Assembly (NCBI GenBank): GCA_020350885.1
Contig: CP070727.1
Location: 449,038 to 513,037, forward strand
DNA: 64,000 nucleotides
Reading direction: 5' to 3'
Source of the DNA: a bacterium
GTDB taxonomy: Bacteria > Krumholzibacteriota > Krumholzibacteriia > Krumholzibacteriales > Krumholzibacteriaceae
This document shows positions 55,819 to 62,721 of this stretch, piece by piece. The position numbers were made by a program, and so were the translations under genes. How positions within the stretch are numbered: the first letter of the stretch is position 1; each line of letters opens with the position of its first letter. Below the pieces are notes generated by a model, which saw only the letters and a list, made by a program, of their open reading frames with translations, was not told the DNA's origin and ran no database searches.

Positions 55819-57240
55819 TTACTCCTCTTTGAGCTCGATCACGTTCACCGAGCCGAAATCCGACAGCGGCCTGTCGAACTGGGCCTCGTCACCTACGACG
55901 AGCACCGTGAGCATTTCTGGGTGCAGGTATTTCTTCGAAACCCGCCTGATGTCATCAACAGTGATAGCGGCGTACTTCTCCATGTCCCTCTCCGGTGAAT
56001 CCAGCGGCCTCCCTTCGAAGGTAAGAAAAACCAGCCGCCGCACCACCTGGCTCTTGGACTCGTAGTCGAACACCTGGCTATTGACGTAGGAGTCGATCGC
56101 CTTGCTGACCTCCTCCTCGGTGGGTCCCTCGTTTATCATCTTCTCTATCTGATCGATGATGAGCTGGAGGGCCCGGCTGTAGGCGTCCGACTTGGTCTGG
56201 GCATATGCGTAGAAGACCCCTTTCGCCCAGGCGTTCGAGCCGTACCGCGACCCGGTCGAGTAGGCAAGCCCCTCCTCGCTGCGGACACGCTCCGTGATCC
56301 ATGATGTGAAGCTGCCGCCTCCGAGAATGAAATTCATGATATTGATCGCGCAGCGGTCCGGATTCTGGACCTTGATCCCGCTATGACCGATCATCATGTA
56401 GGCCTGGTTGATGTCCATGTATGCATAGTTGTAGTTCTCTGAATCCTTCTTTTCGAACGGCGGCACTTCGGGTATCGTCACCTCAGCCGGCTGCCACCCG
56501 CCGAAGACCTTGTCCAATGCGCCTATGATCTCGGCCTTCGTCACATCCCCGCTCACACCGATGATCGAGTTGTTCGGGTAAAAGTATTTCTTGTGGCATG
56601 CGGCGAGATCTTCACGTGTTATTGCATTCACGCTCGCCATCGATGCCCGCCAGCCGAACGGGTGCCCTGCGTACATCAACCTGAAGAACTCCCTCCGGTA
56701 TACCCTGCTCGGTTCGTCGTTCTGCCGCCTGATCTCTTCGAGCATCGTCTTCCGCTTCATCTCGACCTTGTCCTCCGGGTAGGCAGGATTCATCACGAGG
56801 TCGGCGAGTATCTCGAGGACCCGGGGAAGATCCTTCTTGAGGCAGTTCACGTAGAAGTTGGTGCTCAGATCGCCGCCGACAACCTCGATGCTGGCGGCGA
56901 GGAATTCGAGCTCGTCGTTCAGCTTGTCCGACGGCCAGGCCTCGGTGCCGCCGTTTCGGATGACCCACCGGTTCATCTCGTTGAGCCCATACTTCTCCTC
57001 TTCGGGGAAATAGGTTCTCAGCAGCAGCACGACATCAACGACCGGGATCTCGTGATCCTCGATCAGGAATCCTTCGAGGCCGTTGTCAAAGGCAAGATCG
57101 GTCGACTCCGGCGTCGTGATCTTGAGCGACGGATACTTGAGCTTGCTCGGGTGCGGCCGCTTCTTCCCGGCGGAGAGCGGGGAGGCGAACACGAGCAACA
57201 GCACCGCCGCGAGGAATGTTACACATATTCTCTTCTTCAT
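55819..57240 (-). CDS. M16-family peptidase, non-catalytic partner
   Basis: 473 residues after signal peptide cleavage is counted in; the signal peptide is VTFLAAVLLLVFASPLSA. It has two M16 repeats. The zinc-binding HxxEH of the first repeat is replaced by the sequence GLNEMNRWVIRNGGTE, so the zinc site is lost. The second repeat keeps the ERVRSEEGLAYSTGSRY arginine-tyrosine pair that contacts substrate in active M16 enzymes. Active M16B enzymes in the FCB group often work as a pair of a catalytic and a non-catalytic subunit, which fits the gene upstream. Probably cleaves or binds exported peptides. Confidence 0.8.
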   Translation of the reverse strand: MKKRICVTFLAAVLLLVFASPLSAGKKRPHPSKLKYPSLKITTPESTDLAFDNGLEGFLIEDHEIPVVDVVLLLRTYFPEEEKYGLNEMNRWVIRNGGTEAWPSDKLNDELEFLAASIEVVGGDLSTNFYVNCLKKDLPRVLEILADLVMNPAYPEDKVEMKRKTMLEEIRRQNDEPSRVYRREFFRLMYAGHPFGWRASMASVNAITREDLAACHKKYFYPNNSIIGVSGDVTKAEIIGALDKVFGGWQPAEVTIPEVPPFEKKDSENYNYAYMDINQAYMMIGHSGIKVQNPDRCAINIMNFILGGGSFTSWITERVRSEEGLAYSTGSRYGSNAWAKGVFYAYAQTKSDAYSRALQLIIDQIEKMINEGPTEEEVSKAIDSYVNSQVFDYESKSQVVRRLVFLTFEGRPLDSPERDMEKYAAITVDDIRRVSKKYLHPEMLTVLVVGDEAQFDRPLSDFGSVNVIELKEE

Positions 57241-57265
57241 CGCAGATCTCCTTGCGTTTCCCGTC

Positions 57266-59188
57266 CTACTGCTTCTCTTCCTTCTTCTCATCTTTTTCCT
57301 TCACGAAACCCGCCGCCTTGGCACGTTCGTAGAGCTCCATACCGAACGCCTTCTGCTCCTCGGGAGAGCGGAGCTGCTGGAACTTCTGGTAGATCTGCAT
57401 CTGCTCGTCCTGGCTGAGCGATTGGACGTACTTCATGATGACCTCGCGTGCGGCGGCCTCCTCGTCCACCCCACCACCCTCTTCATCTTCTTCCTCCTCC
57501 ACCTTCACACGGTAGCCGACCGTACGGTTCTTCGGCATGAAGTACTCCTCGGCGTATCGCATGACATCCTCTTTTGTGACGGCCTTCACCCGGTCGTAGA
57601 GCTCGAAGAGCCCTTTGTAGTCGCCGAGGTAGAGCTGACCCATAGCGATGGTGAAGGCGATACCGAGGTTGGAGCCGAGCTGGCGGATCTGCATGGCGTC
57701 GATCTGGTTCTTGATCCGCTGCAGCTCCCTATCGGTAACCGGCTCCGTCTTGAGCTTCTCCAGCTCATCGAGAATCGCGGCCTCCACCTCCTCGAGTGTA
57801 TGCGGCTGCTGCGGCATGGCCGATATGACAAGGAGGTTATCGTAGCGGTCACCGGGACCGGTGTAGACCCTCACCGGCCTGGCCGTGAGCTCCTGTTCCT
57901 CATAGATCGACTTGTAGAGCCGGGAGGTGCGCCCCTCGGAGAGTATGTTGTTCACCAGGAGCGTCGTAACGGCATCTGGGTGCGGGAAGGTCGGCTTGTG
58001 GAAACCGATCATGAGCCTGGGATTGGCAGTATGTTCCACGACGACGCGCCGCTCGCCCTGCTGCTCGGGCTCACGTGTCTCGACGGGCGGGGGCGGTTCC
58101 TGCGCCGGGATCGGCCCGAAGTACTTCTTGGCCATCTTCTTGACCTTGCCGACATCGATGTCCCCCACCACGACGGCAACGGCGTTGTTCGGTGCATAGT
58201 GAATCCTGTGATAATCGACGAGCTCCTCTCGATCGACCGTCAGGAGATCGCTCATCCAGCCCAGGACCGGCCACTTGTAGGGTGACGCCGTGAAGGCAAC
58301 CGAGTAGAAGCTCTCCCTGAGGACATCGTCGGGATCGTTTTCGCTCAGGCGCCGTTCCTCCATGACGACATCCCGTTCCGACCAGAACTCCCTGAAGATC
58401 GGCGTATCCATCCGGTCGGACTCCATCGTCATCCATAGCTCGAGCCTGTTGGCCGGAAGGTAGACGAAATAAACGGTGAAATCGTTCGATGTGCCGGCAT
58501 TGAGGAACCGGGAGCCGTTGTTCATGTAGTACTCCCAGAGTTCCTCCGAGATGATGTACTGCCGTTGCTCGTCGAGCAGCTTCGAGATCTCGCCCCATGC
58601 GATCTCGTGCTCGACGAACATCTCCAGGTAGTTCACACCGCGGTCCTCGATAAGATATTCGACCGAGGTGAGGGAGTCGGGCAATGCGCTCATCGCCCTG
58701 ATCTTCTCCGCCATAAGCCTGTTCTGCTCATATTTGTTGGCGCCGACGGCCTCCTTCTCCTCGTCACTGAAACCCGCTATCACCTGATTGGCGAAGGCCC
58801 TGAATTTCTCGTAACGCCACTCATCCATCGCCTTCCTGAGCTCGATGGTGCGCTCGCCGAGCTCGTCGGTCTTCTCGATGTAGGGGATCTCCTTCTTGTA
58901 GTTCTTCGTCCCCATCATCTCCGTTCCCTTGAACATCATATGCTCGAGGAGATGCGAGATGCCGGTAATGTTATTTCGTTCGTTGGCAGAGCCCACGTCG
59001 AAGACGATTGCACAGAATACGACGGGCGCTTCGTGCCGCTCTACGACGAGGAACTTCATGCCGTTCTTGAGGTCGAATTCCTTGACCTTCTCCATCAGCG
59101 TCTCGGCGTACACCGGGGTTCCCATGAGAAGCCCCAGGAGTACGACGAAGACCACCGAGAGAGCGAGGAATCTGCTCCTTCGCTGCAT
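57266..59188 (-). CDS. M16-family zinc peptidase, catalytic subunit
   Basis: 640 residues. Signal peptide (LSVVFVVLLGLLMGTPVYA) followed by the active M16 motif HLLEH (79-83, His79, Glu82 and His83) in GISHLLEHMMFKGTEMMGTKNY. A further domain follows with a long Glu-rich tail (EEEEDEEGGGVDEEAAARE) and C-terminal LVNNILSEGRTSRLYKSIYEEQ. Periplasmic or surface-located, because of the signal peptide. ATG 59188 has a strong GGAGGAGG directly upstream. The non-catalytic partner and a PH-domain membrane protein follow in the same operon. The operon is divergent from the M1 peptidase gene. Confidence 0.85.
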   Translation of the reverse strand: MQRRSRFLALSVVFVVLLGLLMGTPVYAETLMEKVKEFDLKNGMKFLVVERHEAPVVFCAIVFDVGSANERNNITGISHLLEHMMFKGTEMMGTKNYKKEIPYIEKTDELGERTIELRKAMDEWRYEKFRAFANQVIAGFSDEEKEAVGANKYEQNRLMAEKIRAMSALPDSLTSVEYLIEDRGVNYLEMFVEHEIAWGEISKLLDEQRQYIISEELWEYYMNNGSRFLNAGTSNDFTVYFVYLPANRLELWMTMESDRMDTPIFREFWSERDVVMEERRLSENDPDDVLRESFYSVAFTASPYKWPVLGWMSDLLTVDREELVDYHRIHYAPNNAVAVVVGDIDVGKVKKMAKKYFGPIPAQEPPPPVETREPEQQGERRVVVEHTANPRLMIGFHKPTFPHPDAVTTLLVNNILSEGRTSRLYKSIYEEQELTARPVRVYTGPGDRYDNLLVISAMPQQPHTLEEVEAAILDELEKLKTEPVTDRELQRIKNQIDAMQIRQLGSNLGIAFTIAMGQLYLGDYKGLFELYDRVKAVTKEDVMRYAEEYFMPKNRTVGYRVKVEEEEDEEGGGVDEEAAAREVIMKYVQSLSQDEQMQIYQKFQQLRSPEEQKAFGMELYERAKAAGFVKEKDEKKEEKQ

Positions 59189-59285
59189 ACCTCCTCCTTC
59201 CAAGGATGTTTGTGACAATGTATTCATTCCGCAGAATCGATCGAGAGGTGTGATAGTAGCGGGAACATTCCGCTCGTATCGCACA

Positions 59286-59463: not shown

Positions 59464-59655
59464 GAATTTTCCTGGGGTGCACTGGGATTGTGCAGGGAAT
59501 GCTGCCAGGCCGTTCCTTGCCTTGATTTGCACCCGGCCCTGTGATACCCTCAGCGAATCGAAAATATGCAGAATGAATCATATACATGAAAAATAATACA
59601 GATACCGTGGAACGACTGGCATATGAGAGGGTATACGTACCGAAAGAGGGTGGCG

Positions 59656-62600
59656 ATGACACGTGAGGGAACGAGGAGAGCGAGAATAAACTTGCATTCG
59701 GCGGCGATCGGTGCCGCCTGTGTGGCCATCTCAGGGATTCTCGGCCTGGCAACCGCTACCGCAGGCCACTGCCAGGAGGGCCCCGCACCGGGGAGTCTCG
59801 AACAGGATTTGCCGCTTCCCGTACTGAGCGACCGGTACTGGCAGCAGAAGGCGGATTACGAGATACACGTGACCCTCGATCCGTCGGAGCACACCCTGAC
59901 GGGCACAGAGACCATAACCTACACGAACAACTCGCCCGATACCCTGGATATATTCTACCTGCACCTCTACCCCAACGCCTATAGGGATCGCACCTCGCAG
60001 CTCATCAGGGATTACATGAAGGGGACGTTCTTTTTCTTCGTGGGGCTGCCCAAGTCGTGGCGCGGCTGGATCGATGTGACCGCGCTCTCGGTAGACGACA
60101 CCGAGACGGAATTTACGGTTGACGGCACTATTTTGGAGAGTGCGTTCCCGATACCGCTGGCGCCCGGCAAGACGGCGACGATCGAGCTCACCTTCACCGA
60201 GAAGATACGGAAACGGCGGGGCAGGGCGGGATACCGGGGCAGGCATTACGACCTGGCCCAGTGGTACCCCAAGATGGTCGTCTACGACAAGCGGGGCTGG
60301 CATCCGGACCAGTTCCGCCAGGGGGAATTCTACGGCGAGTTCGGCACCTTCGATGTCCACATCACACTCCCCGAAGAGTACGTCGTCGCCGCCACCGGTG
60401 TACCGGTATCGGGAGATCCGGGCTGGGAGAAGAATCCACTGCGGCGGGGAGGCGGGGGCGGCAGCGGCATGCACCCCATGGGCGGGGGGCCTCACGGCCA
60501 CAGCATGAGTGCAGGCGGTGGTGAGGATACCGAGGTGGATGACACAAAGACGGTTCACTTCAGGGCCGAGAAGGTGCACGACTTCGCATGGTCGGCGGAT
60601 CCGACCTTCGTCGTGCAGGATACGACCTACAACGACATCCATGTCATGAGCATCTTCAGGTCCTGGAACCGCTCCTGGGCCGACTCGGTACTCGTACGGA
60701 CGCTGCGCTCCGTCCGGTGGCTCGAGGGCATCACCGGTCCCTACCCGTACCCGCAGCTCAGCATCGTCGACTGCCCGACGCACGGCGGGATGGAATACCC
60801 GATGTTCGTAATGAATGGAAACGCCGATGAGGGCCTCATCTTTCACGAGGTCGGACACATCTACTTCTACGCCGCCCTGGCCAACAACGAGCGGGATGAG
60901 GCGTGGCTCGACGAGGGTCTGACACAGTACCAGACCTTCTGGTATACGGAAAGGCGCTTCGGACCGAACGGCGAGCCCCAGGATCGGATATTCCCCTTCT
61001 CGCTCTTTCCGAGGGGAACAATGTACGAACGGCTCGCACGCCCCGTGATCAACCTCCACCGCACCGACTTCGCAGAACGTGTGGCGACCCCGGCGCACGA
61101 ATTCCAGAACAGCTACCACACCTCCGTCTACGTAAAGGCGCCGCTCTTTCTACGGGCGCTCCATTACACCGTGGGAGACGAGAATTTCCGTAAGATCCTT
61201 ACCACATACTTCGAGCGCTGGAAGTTCAAGCATGTCGACGAGGAGGCGTTCCGCTCCGTCTGCGAGGAGATCTCGGAGATGGACCTGAAGGACCTCTTCA
61301 AACAGTGGCTCCACTCGACGAAGGATTGCGACTATCGTATCAGCCGCTTCAAGGTGAAACAGGCGGACGAAGGGTACACCGCCGAGGTCAAGATCAATCG
61401 CAAGGGCGAGCTCATCATGCCGATCACACTCGCCTTCCGCCTCAAGAACGGCAATACGGTAACGGAGCGTGAGGACGGATACCTCCGGACGTTCGAGAAG
61501 ACATATACATTCGATACCAAACCCGTCTCGCTGTCGATCAATCCGGATAACGAGATCCTGGACATTTACCAGATCGACAACCACGCACCGCGCCGGAGGG
61601 ATCTTACGATCGACATCCCCTTCGTGAATACATACTACCCTCCGGATGCTTTCAGCTACCGGTTCGCACCGACCGGCTACTACAACGACATCGATGGCGG
61701 CAAGGCGGGCATGCGGCTGCGCGGCAGCTACGATAACACATACAAGCGGTTCGTGCTCCAGGTCCTGTACGGCATCGAGAGCGAGCAGGTTGATGTCTAC
61801 GGGTCGTTCGCGCATCCGCTCAAGTACTTCGGGCGCGACTGCCACCTATCAGCCAACGGGTTTTACCGCGAGGGACGCCAGGGGGCGTTCCTCAACATCT
61901 CGAAAATCCTCAGGAACTCACTCGCCGATCCCCTCCCCAAGCACCTCGATTTCTGGGCCTCCTACCATGAGATCACCGACCTCGACTACGTCTTCCCGTT
62001 TACCTACGAGGAGGGGAGGACAGTGAAGCTGGGTCTCCGTGCAGCGGTCGCTCCGAAGACGGATCTCTTCGCAACATCGTTCTCGTTCACCCTCGATAGG
62101 ACGATCTGGTGGAGCGACTTCGAGTTCGAGAAGACATCCATGGAGGCCAAGCTGTGGCCGGCCCGGCGGTACCCCCTGCCGGTGCGGCTCTATCTCCGTT
62201 TCTTCCTCGGCTACTCATCGATCGATCCGCCGATGCAGGAACGCTTCAACCTGGCCGGTGCCGGCGTCCTCGATAAGGAGCGCTACTTCTGGCTCCGGAG
62301 TGTCGGCGCCTTCCCTAAGGATTACTACAACAACTTCCACCTGCCGGGCGATGCGAACCTCAGGGGCTACTACGACGGCGATTACAGCTTCAGCCGTATC
62401 TTCGCCTCGAACGTGGAGCTCCAGGTACCGTGTCCTCTGCCGATCGGCAGGCGCCTGCTGCGCCGGGTCAGGCCGAGGCTCTTCGCCTTCTACGACTGGG
62501 GTAAGGTCATGGACAAGCACCCGATGGAGGCGTTTCCGGGCGGCGTACCGCCCGGGCTCGATGAGACCGTCTTCGACGGTATCATCTTCGACTTCGGCGT

Positions 62601-62721
62601 TGGGCTCAGGCTCTGGAGGATCTACGGGGAGTTCCCTCTCTACCTCAGCAACCCGGAGATCGCGGGCGAAACGGATGAGTGGGATTTCAGGTGGAAGGTC
62701 GGATTCTGGAGCCTGTTCTAG
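59656..62721 (+). CDS. M1-family metallopeptidase fused to an Omp85-like C-terminal barrel
   Basis: 1021 residues. After a signal peptide (AAIGAACVAISGILGLATATAG) there is an M1-type N-terminal beta domain (YEIHVTLDPSEHTLTGTETI), the exopeptidase-loop variant GGMEYP (Glu380), and a zinc site HEVGH (397-401) with the third ligand Glu420 (WLDEGLTQY), in the right HExxH-x18-E spacing. From about residue 670 it continues with beta strands that resemble the Omp85/BamA barrel: LRGYYDGDYSFSRIFASNVELQVP (902 on), FAFYDWGKV, FDFGVGLRLWRIYGEFPLYL, and a C-terminal Phe (WSLF). So the peptidase may be displayed on or passed through the outer membrane by its own barrel. ATG 59656 follows AGAGGGTGG; an ATG at 59623 is an alternative. 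Confidence 0.8.
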   Translation: MTREGTRRARINLHSAAIGAACVAISGILGLATATAGHCQEGPAPGSLEQDLPLPVLSDRYWQQKADYEIHVTLDPSEHTLTGTETITYTNNSPDTLDIFYLHLYPNAYRDRTSQLIRDYMKGTFFFFVGLPKSWRGWIDVTALSVDDTETEFTVDGTILESAFPIPLAPGKTATIELTFTEKIRKRRGRAGYRGRHYDLAQWYPKMVVYDKRGWHPDQFRQGEFYGEFGTFDVHITLPEEYVVAATGVPVSGDPGWEKNPLRRGGGGGSGMHPMGGGPHGHSMSAGGGEDTEVDDTKTVHFRAEKVHDFAWSADPTFVVQDTTYNDIHVMSIFRSWNRSWADSVLVRTLRSVRWLEGITGPYPYPQLSIVDCPTHGGMEYPMFVMNGNADEGLIFHEVGHIYFYAALANNERDEAWLDEGLTQYQTFWYTERRFGPNGEPQDRIFPFSLFPRGTMYERLARPVINLHRTDFAERVATPAHEFQNSYHTSVYVKAPLFLRALHYTVGDENFRKILTTYFERWKFKHVDEEAFRSVCEEISEMDLKDLFKQWLHSTKDCDYRISRFKVKQADEGYTAEVKINRKGELIMPITLAFRLKNGNTVTEREDGYLRTFEKTYTFDTKPVSLSINPDNEILDIYQIDNHAPRRRDLTIDIPFVNTYYPPDAFSYRFAPTGYYNDIDGGKAGMRLRGSYDNTYKRFVLQVLYGIESEQVDVYGSFAHPLKYFGRDCHLSANGFYREGRQGAFLNISKILRNSLADPLPKHLDFWASYHEITDLDYVFPFTYEEGRTVKLGLRAAVAPKTDLFATSFSFTLDRTIWWSDFEFEKTSMEAKLWPARRYPLPVRLYLRFFLGYSSIDPPMQERFNLAGAGVLDKERYFWLRSVGAFPKDYYNNFHLPGDANLRGYYDGDYSFSRIFASNVELQVPCPLPIGRRLLRRVRPRLFAFYDWGKVMDKHPMEAFPGGVPPGLDETVFDGIIFDFGVGLRLWRIYGEFPLYLSNPEIAGETDEWDFRWKVGFWSLF

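Follow-up and report, generated by a model that had tools for sequence, protein, structure and literature searches.

Omp85 proteins have been regarded as assembly and translocation machines. A gene on the forward strand of a window of 64,000 nucleotides (the whole stretch of DNA that was analysed) raises the question of whether an outer-membrane barrel of this type can carry a zinc peptidase in the same polypeptide and, if so, on which side of the membrane the enzyme would work. The preliminary description of this gene had read it as an M1 metallopeptidase fused to an Omp85-like barrel. This reading held: a complete zinc site, a barrel fold and homologues in several phyla were found.

Gene and protein organization

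The fusion gene (59656..62721, + strand) is one open frame encoding 1021 amino acids, with an alternative in-frame ATG at position 59623, 33 bases upstream. It lies in a genome of 4.1 Mb, assembled as a single contig, and the closest named homologues carry the label Krumholzibacteriota. Homologues over the full length, of about 975–1060 aa, are present in several phyla. An artefact of frame joining was rejected, as the frame is single and intact in many genomes.

The encoded protein begins with a probable signal peptide (59656..59769, +; residues 1 to about 38), comprising a basic start and a hydrophobic helix (residues 19–29); this stretch is a low-confidence part of the AlphaFold2 model and its cleavage site is putative. 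M1 domains I–III follow (59836..61575, +; residues about 61–640), as identified with Pfam (PF01433), Foldseek and secondary structure, and then an Omp85-type barrel of 16 strands (61648..62718, +; residues 665–1021), delimited by the models, Foldseek and the Pfam Omp85 match of a homologue (L040, see below). The last residue is Phe1021. Within the M1 part there is a disordered, low-complexity loop rich in Gly, His and Met (60445..60537, +; residues 264–294; pLDDT <50), which varies among homologues and is a possible candidate metal binder.

M1 peptidase part and its catalytic site

The Pfam profile Peptidase_M1 (PF01433) matched residues 392–551 with 56.7 bits (cut-off 27.7), and when the whole-chain model was compared with the PDB using Foldseek, the best matches were IRAP, ERAP1/2 and other M1 enzymes (best E-value 4.4e-24). 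The complete zinc-peptidase site that had been proposed for this protein (HEVGH-x18-E and GGMEYP) was confirmed, both in the presence of its residues and in their conservation among homologues. The HEVGH zinc site (60844..60858, +; residues 397–401) has its H397, E398 and H401 in 34/34 long homologues of the tree set, and Glu420, the third zinc ligand (60913..60915, +), is present in 33 of the 34. The spacing from His401 to Glu420 gives the HEXXH-x18-E pattern of peptidase family M1. Tyr492 (61129..61131, +), the predicted transition-state tyrosine, is invariant in the 34 long homologues and pairs in the alignment with the tyrosine of VYEKG (the YEKG motif) in E. coli PepN. The GxMEN motif appears here as GGMEY (60784..60798, +; residues 377–381, the GGMEYP stretch being residues 377–382): Gly, Met and Glu are retained, with Glu380 in all 34 long homologues, and Asn is replaced by Tyr, as it is in nearly all close relatives.

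The protein thus shares domains I–III, HEXXH-x18-E, GxMEx and the catalytic Tyr with M1 aminopeptidases (PepN, ERAP1/2, IRAP, LTA4H), but differs from them in having GGMEY rather than GxMEN, no domain IV and a C-terminal membrane barrel. In the model the helical domain IV is absent, and the strands of domain III (residues 560–628) are followed by the barrel. The closest M1 relatives, of about 610–830 aa, consist of M1 alone and come from Bacteroidota and Gemmatimonadota; they are likewise short and have the same zinc site and GGMEY with Tyr for Asn, but no barrel. The fusion would be a case in which M1 enzymes lacking domain IV can be put to the test.

The C-terminal Omp85-type barrel

AlphaFold2 models, built on 28 homologues, were obtained for the whole chain (pLDDT 80.3, pTM 0.77) and for the barrel alone (pLDDT 88.0, pTM 0.85). 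In both, the C-terminal ~357 residues are predicted to form a barrel composed of 11 strands, a 59-residue loop with LRGY, and 5 further strands, of which the final one is short. Structure prediction had been suggested as a check on this region, and it returned a 16-stranded barrel, not a periplasmic M1 C-domain. The LRGY motif (62359..62370, +; residues 902–905) is placed in loop 6, which joins strands 11 and 12; in Omp85 structures this loop normally occupies the lumen.

The C-terminal region forms a barrel of Omp85 type, as the preliminary description had concluded from LRGY, the strand pattern and the C-terminal Phe. The best 50 Foldseek matches of the barrel model in the PDB were all Omp85 proteins (BamA, TamA, Sam50; best E-value 6.8e-11), with moderate TM-scores of 0.45–0.56 by query length. 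The Pfam Omp85 profile (PF01103) gave no match with the fusion protein (P0001) itself; it did match L040, a full-length Gemmatimonadota homologue that is 44% identical to the fusion protein over the whole length (34.1 bits, cut-off 24). An hhalign comparison with a profile built from the Omp85 proteins of the same genome, spanning LRGY to the G-x-G strand, brought LRGY, N-x-E and F-x-D-x-G into register with 95% probability. Since R903, E921, F945 and G852 are invariant in the 28 homologues, the motif pattern of the barrel is not due to chance. Hydrophobicity alternation is strong in the barrel strands (0/2000 shuffles) and equally strong in the M1 beta strands, and therefore does not discriminate the barrel.

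A barrel unrelated to Omp85 and acting as a mere anchor would accord with P0001 alone lacking an Omp85 profile match, and with the search of the barrel-alignment profile against sequences of solved structures (PDB), which gave no match. Against it stand the strand count and motif position, both typical of Omp85, and the register with the genome's own Omp85 proteins. Such a barrel is highly improbable and was rejected, largely on the L040 match and the 50 best Foldseek matches.

No POTRA domain was found in the fusion protein by Pfam, and the model leaves no room for one where M1 domain III passes into strand 1. The linker between the two is about 36 residues long, with no predicted helix. As modelled, the barrel takes the position of M1 domain IV, with domain III running directly into it.

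Distribution and origin of the fusion

The same fusion, sought in other phyla as the preliminary description had advised, was found in Gemmatimonadota and Fidelibacterota and, in divergent forms, in Bacteroidota. Within the window's class, a strong barrel match was obtained in 17 of the 57 genomes that were at least 85% complete, all within four families: the window's family (f1, 12/14), its sister family (f2, 1/1), f7 (3/3) and f8 (1/1), with 0/38 in f3–f6. Apart from fragmentary or frameshifted cases, the frames with a barrel in this class are about 940–1043 aa long. In Gemmatimonadota (the phylum of L056) strong matches were present in 13/61 genomes, in frames of at least 918 aa. One genome of this phylum (G063) encodes two M1-Omp85 fusions (L139:2723-5788 (-) and L040), one of which has an M1-only paralogue directly upstream.

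Of the 80 genomes sampled from the phylum of L042 (a record of Marinimicrobia/Fidelibacterota), 43 gave a barrel match, which in 39 lies within a frame of 874–1059 aa. Seven weakly matching long proteins of this phylum were scanned, and six of these contain Pfam M1 (L140, L141, L143, L145, L147 and L148); the seventh, L146, aligns to the family and has no recognisable zinc site. L140 (L140:1222-4122 (-)) and L146 (L146:2026-4791 (+)) have lost HEXXH and kept the barrel, and from their sequences are apparent pseudoenzymes. Because such zinc-less fusions exist, the architecture does not serve catalysis alone.

Several genomes of Bacteroidota (the phylum of L088, Segetibacter) encode long M1 proteins of 933–1059 aa, whose C-terminal parts matched the barrel profile over at least 300 columns with probabilities of 82–98% (pairwise, uncorrected for database); the 933-aa protein of Segetibacter aerophilus (the genome of L088) falls within the weakest of the three Bacteroidota sets compared. 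A stand-alone barrel gene (407–472 aa) was identified in five Bacteroidota genomes (L150-L153, L155), with no M1 gene within the flanks examined; these barrels, where scanned, gave no Pfam match. As M1-only and barrel-only genes both exist, the parts occur separately as well as fused. They are not always separate genes, an arrangement that would have spoken against the fusion, since they are joined in several phyla.

For the M1 part, a tree of 88 rows was calculated with a quick method; L094, which has a long branch, is the only Bacteroidota long form in it. All sampled fusions of Krumholzibacteriota, Gemmatimonadota and Fidelibacterota fall on one side of a single branch (support 93), and the M1-only proteins on the other; the sole "short" row among the fusions, L041, ends at a contig end. 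The tree is consistent with a single fusion event and mainly vertical descent thereafter, within the limits set by its long branches.

Neighbouring M16 peptidase genes

Divergently from the fusion gene and outside it, two M16 genes are encoded on the reverse strand, and their description as a catalytic/non-catalytic pair proved correct. The 672-aa protein (57266..59284, -) is the active subunit, as judged by Pfam, its HLLEH motif and synteny, and the associated 490-aa M16 peptidase-like protein (55819..57291, -) is the inactive one (Pfam, R..GLAY motif, synteny), in which HXXEH is absent and the R/Y motif reads RVRSEEGLAY. Both start with signal-like sequences.

The active M16 gene adjoins the fusion gene, in divergent orientation, in 14 of the 17 loci from f1 and f2 that have 1 kb or more of upstream sequence; the inactive partner and glgC often come next. 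The linkage was found in 0/4 f7 loci and in none of the examined loci of other phyla. Linkage of fusion and M16 pair, proposed to form an outer-membrane degradation module, is thus conserved at the level of the order, but does not extend to other families of the class or to other phyla, and an obligatory module was rejected because the linkage is absent outside the order. A shared promoter, which had also been suggested, was not supported: the divergent region contains one weak match, against 0.5 expected. Peptide clearance by M16 peptidases together with aminopeptidases is known, and by analogy with it coupling between the fusion protein and the M16 pair in the window's order is plausible.

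Comparison with known systems

No description of the M1-Omp85 architecture was found in full-text searches of open-access papers. The "Metallo" subfamily of Omp85 proteins corresponds to PF00149, which we take to be the metallophosphoesterase family. In the Omp85 survey of Heinz and Lithgow (2014) PF00149 is termed metalloprotease; of the ten subfamilies recognized there, some are non-POTRA ("Metallo", "WD40"), none is described with M1, and the word "peptidase" is absent from the main text (PMC4104836). These two subfamilies resemble the fusion in having non-POTRA N-terminal domains on Omp85 barrels.

The nearest precedent is PlpD (PL-Omp85), in which, as here, a single chain places a hydrolase on the N-terminal side of an Omp85 barrel of 16 strands. 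PlpD, however, combines a patatin-type lipase with POTRA, whereas in the protein studied here the enzyme is a zinc peptidase of M1 type and POTRA is absent, and a patatin domain (type Vd / PL-Omp85) was not found in it by Pfam. PlpD was first thought to display its enzyme; later work showed that the catalytic domain stays periplasmic (PMC11116518). An enzyme on an Omp85 barrel is therefore already known; the M1 version, with its broad spread over phyla, appears to be new. PlpD revealed the Omp85 scaffold as an enzyme carrier, and the M1 class, so far hidden by M1-only profile matches (Pfam reports M1 but seldom the barrel), would be a second well-defined type of enzyme on it.

Location and proposed function

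In Omp85 barrels, strand 1 begins on the periplasmic side. With strand 1 set accordingly, the extracellular loops total 129 residues and the periplasmic turns 53, and the M1 part comes to lie in the periplasm unless it is translocated. The whole-chain pTM of 0.77 exceeds the roughly 0.54 estimated to be attainable from the M1 part alone, which suggests that the model defines how the M1 part sits relative to the barrel. Omp85 topology and the PlpD precedent suggest that the M1 part lies on the periplasmic side, and the periplasmic location of the PlpD enzyme favours a periplasm-facing peptidase here. Of the two locations considered in the preliminary description, the inner face of the outer membrane is thus the favoured one, and self-display gained no positive support.

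We propose that the protein is probably an outer-membrane-anchored, periplasm-facing zinc metallopeptidase of M1 type that trims peptides. After export, the BAM complex would assemble the barrel into the outer membrane, leaving the catalytic domain in the periplasm, close to the membrane, where it may trim peptides or unfolded segments from the N-terminus. In the window's order the M16 pair could cut longer peptides first, with the fusion protein working downstream. Such a peptidase would put proteolysis at the outer membrane in the bacteria that carry it.

Two other explanations were weighed against this one. The barrel might export the M1 domain of the same chain through the outer membrane, so that peptides are degraded outside the cell (type Vd). 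An N-terminal enzyme followed by an Omp85 barrel is the very layout behind the type Vd proposal (PMC4104836, PMC11116518), and a linker of ~36 residues is in principle long enough to thread the lumen. Yet the linker has no predicted helix, loop 6 with LRGY is long and conserved, the M1 part amounts to about 580 residues of globular fold, and the same proposal for PlpD was tested and contradicted (PMC11116518), which together make self-display improbable. It is also rather unlikely that the protein is an assembly or quality-control factor, engaged in insertion or sensing like BamA or TamA, in which M1 replaces POTRA and removes or only binds clients. The Omp85 fold of the barrel, the position of M1 domain III where the missing POTRA would stand, the short terminal strand, which could permit a lateral gate, and the persistence of zinc-less fusions, which fits an M1 part that binds clients as well, would all suit such a role; but the genome has separate Omp85 proteins with 3–5 POTRA stretches, most fusions show strong conservation of the catalytic residues, and the lateral gate is hypothetical. 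An FCB-wide M1-Omp85 family working as a coupled machine, in which outer-membrane clients are sensed or retained by the barrel and trimmed by the M1 part, or only bound by it where it is zinc-less, is a speculative extension to which we likewise assign a low probability.

Other enzyme-Omp85 proteins of the genome

Besides the M1 fusion, probably a periplasm-facing peptidase, the genome encodes other enzymes joined to barrels of this type, giving at least four enzyme-Omp85 proteins in total (M1, MA_2 and patatin types). Two of them, of 1116 and 952 aa (L121:1351-4698 (-) and L122:893-3748 (+), respectively), combine Peptidase_MA_2 (HEXXH), a PD40 propeller and an Omp85-type barrel. They resemble the "WD40" Omp85 class, to which the survey text gives no peptidase domain (PMC4104836). 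When the 1116-aa protein was used as a query, a match was obtained in 30/30 relatives, in some over part of its length only. The patatin type is represented by a PlpD-like patatin-POTRA-Omp85 protein (L123:1061-3382 (-)), and L124 is another copy of that protein's barrel, in part masked.
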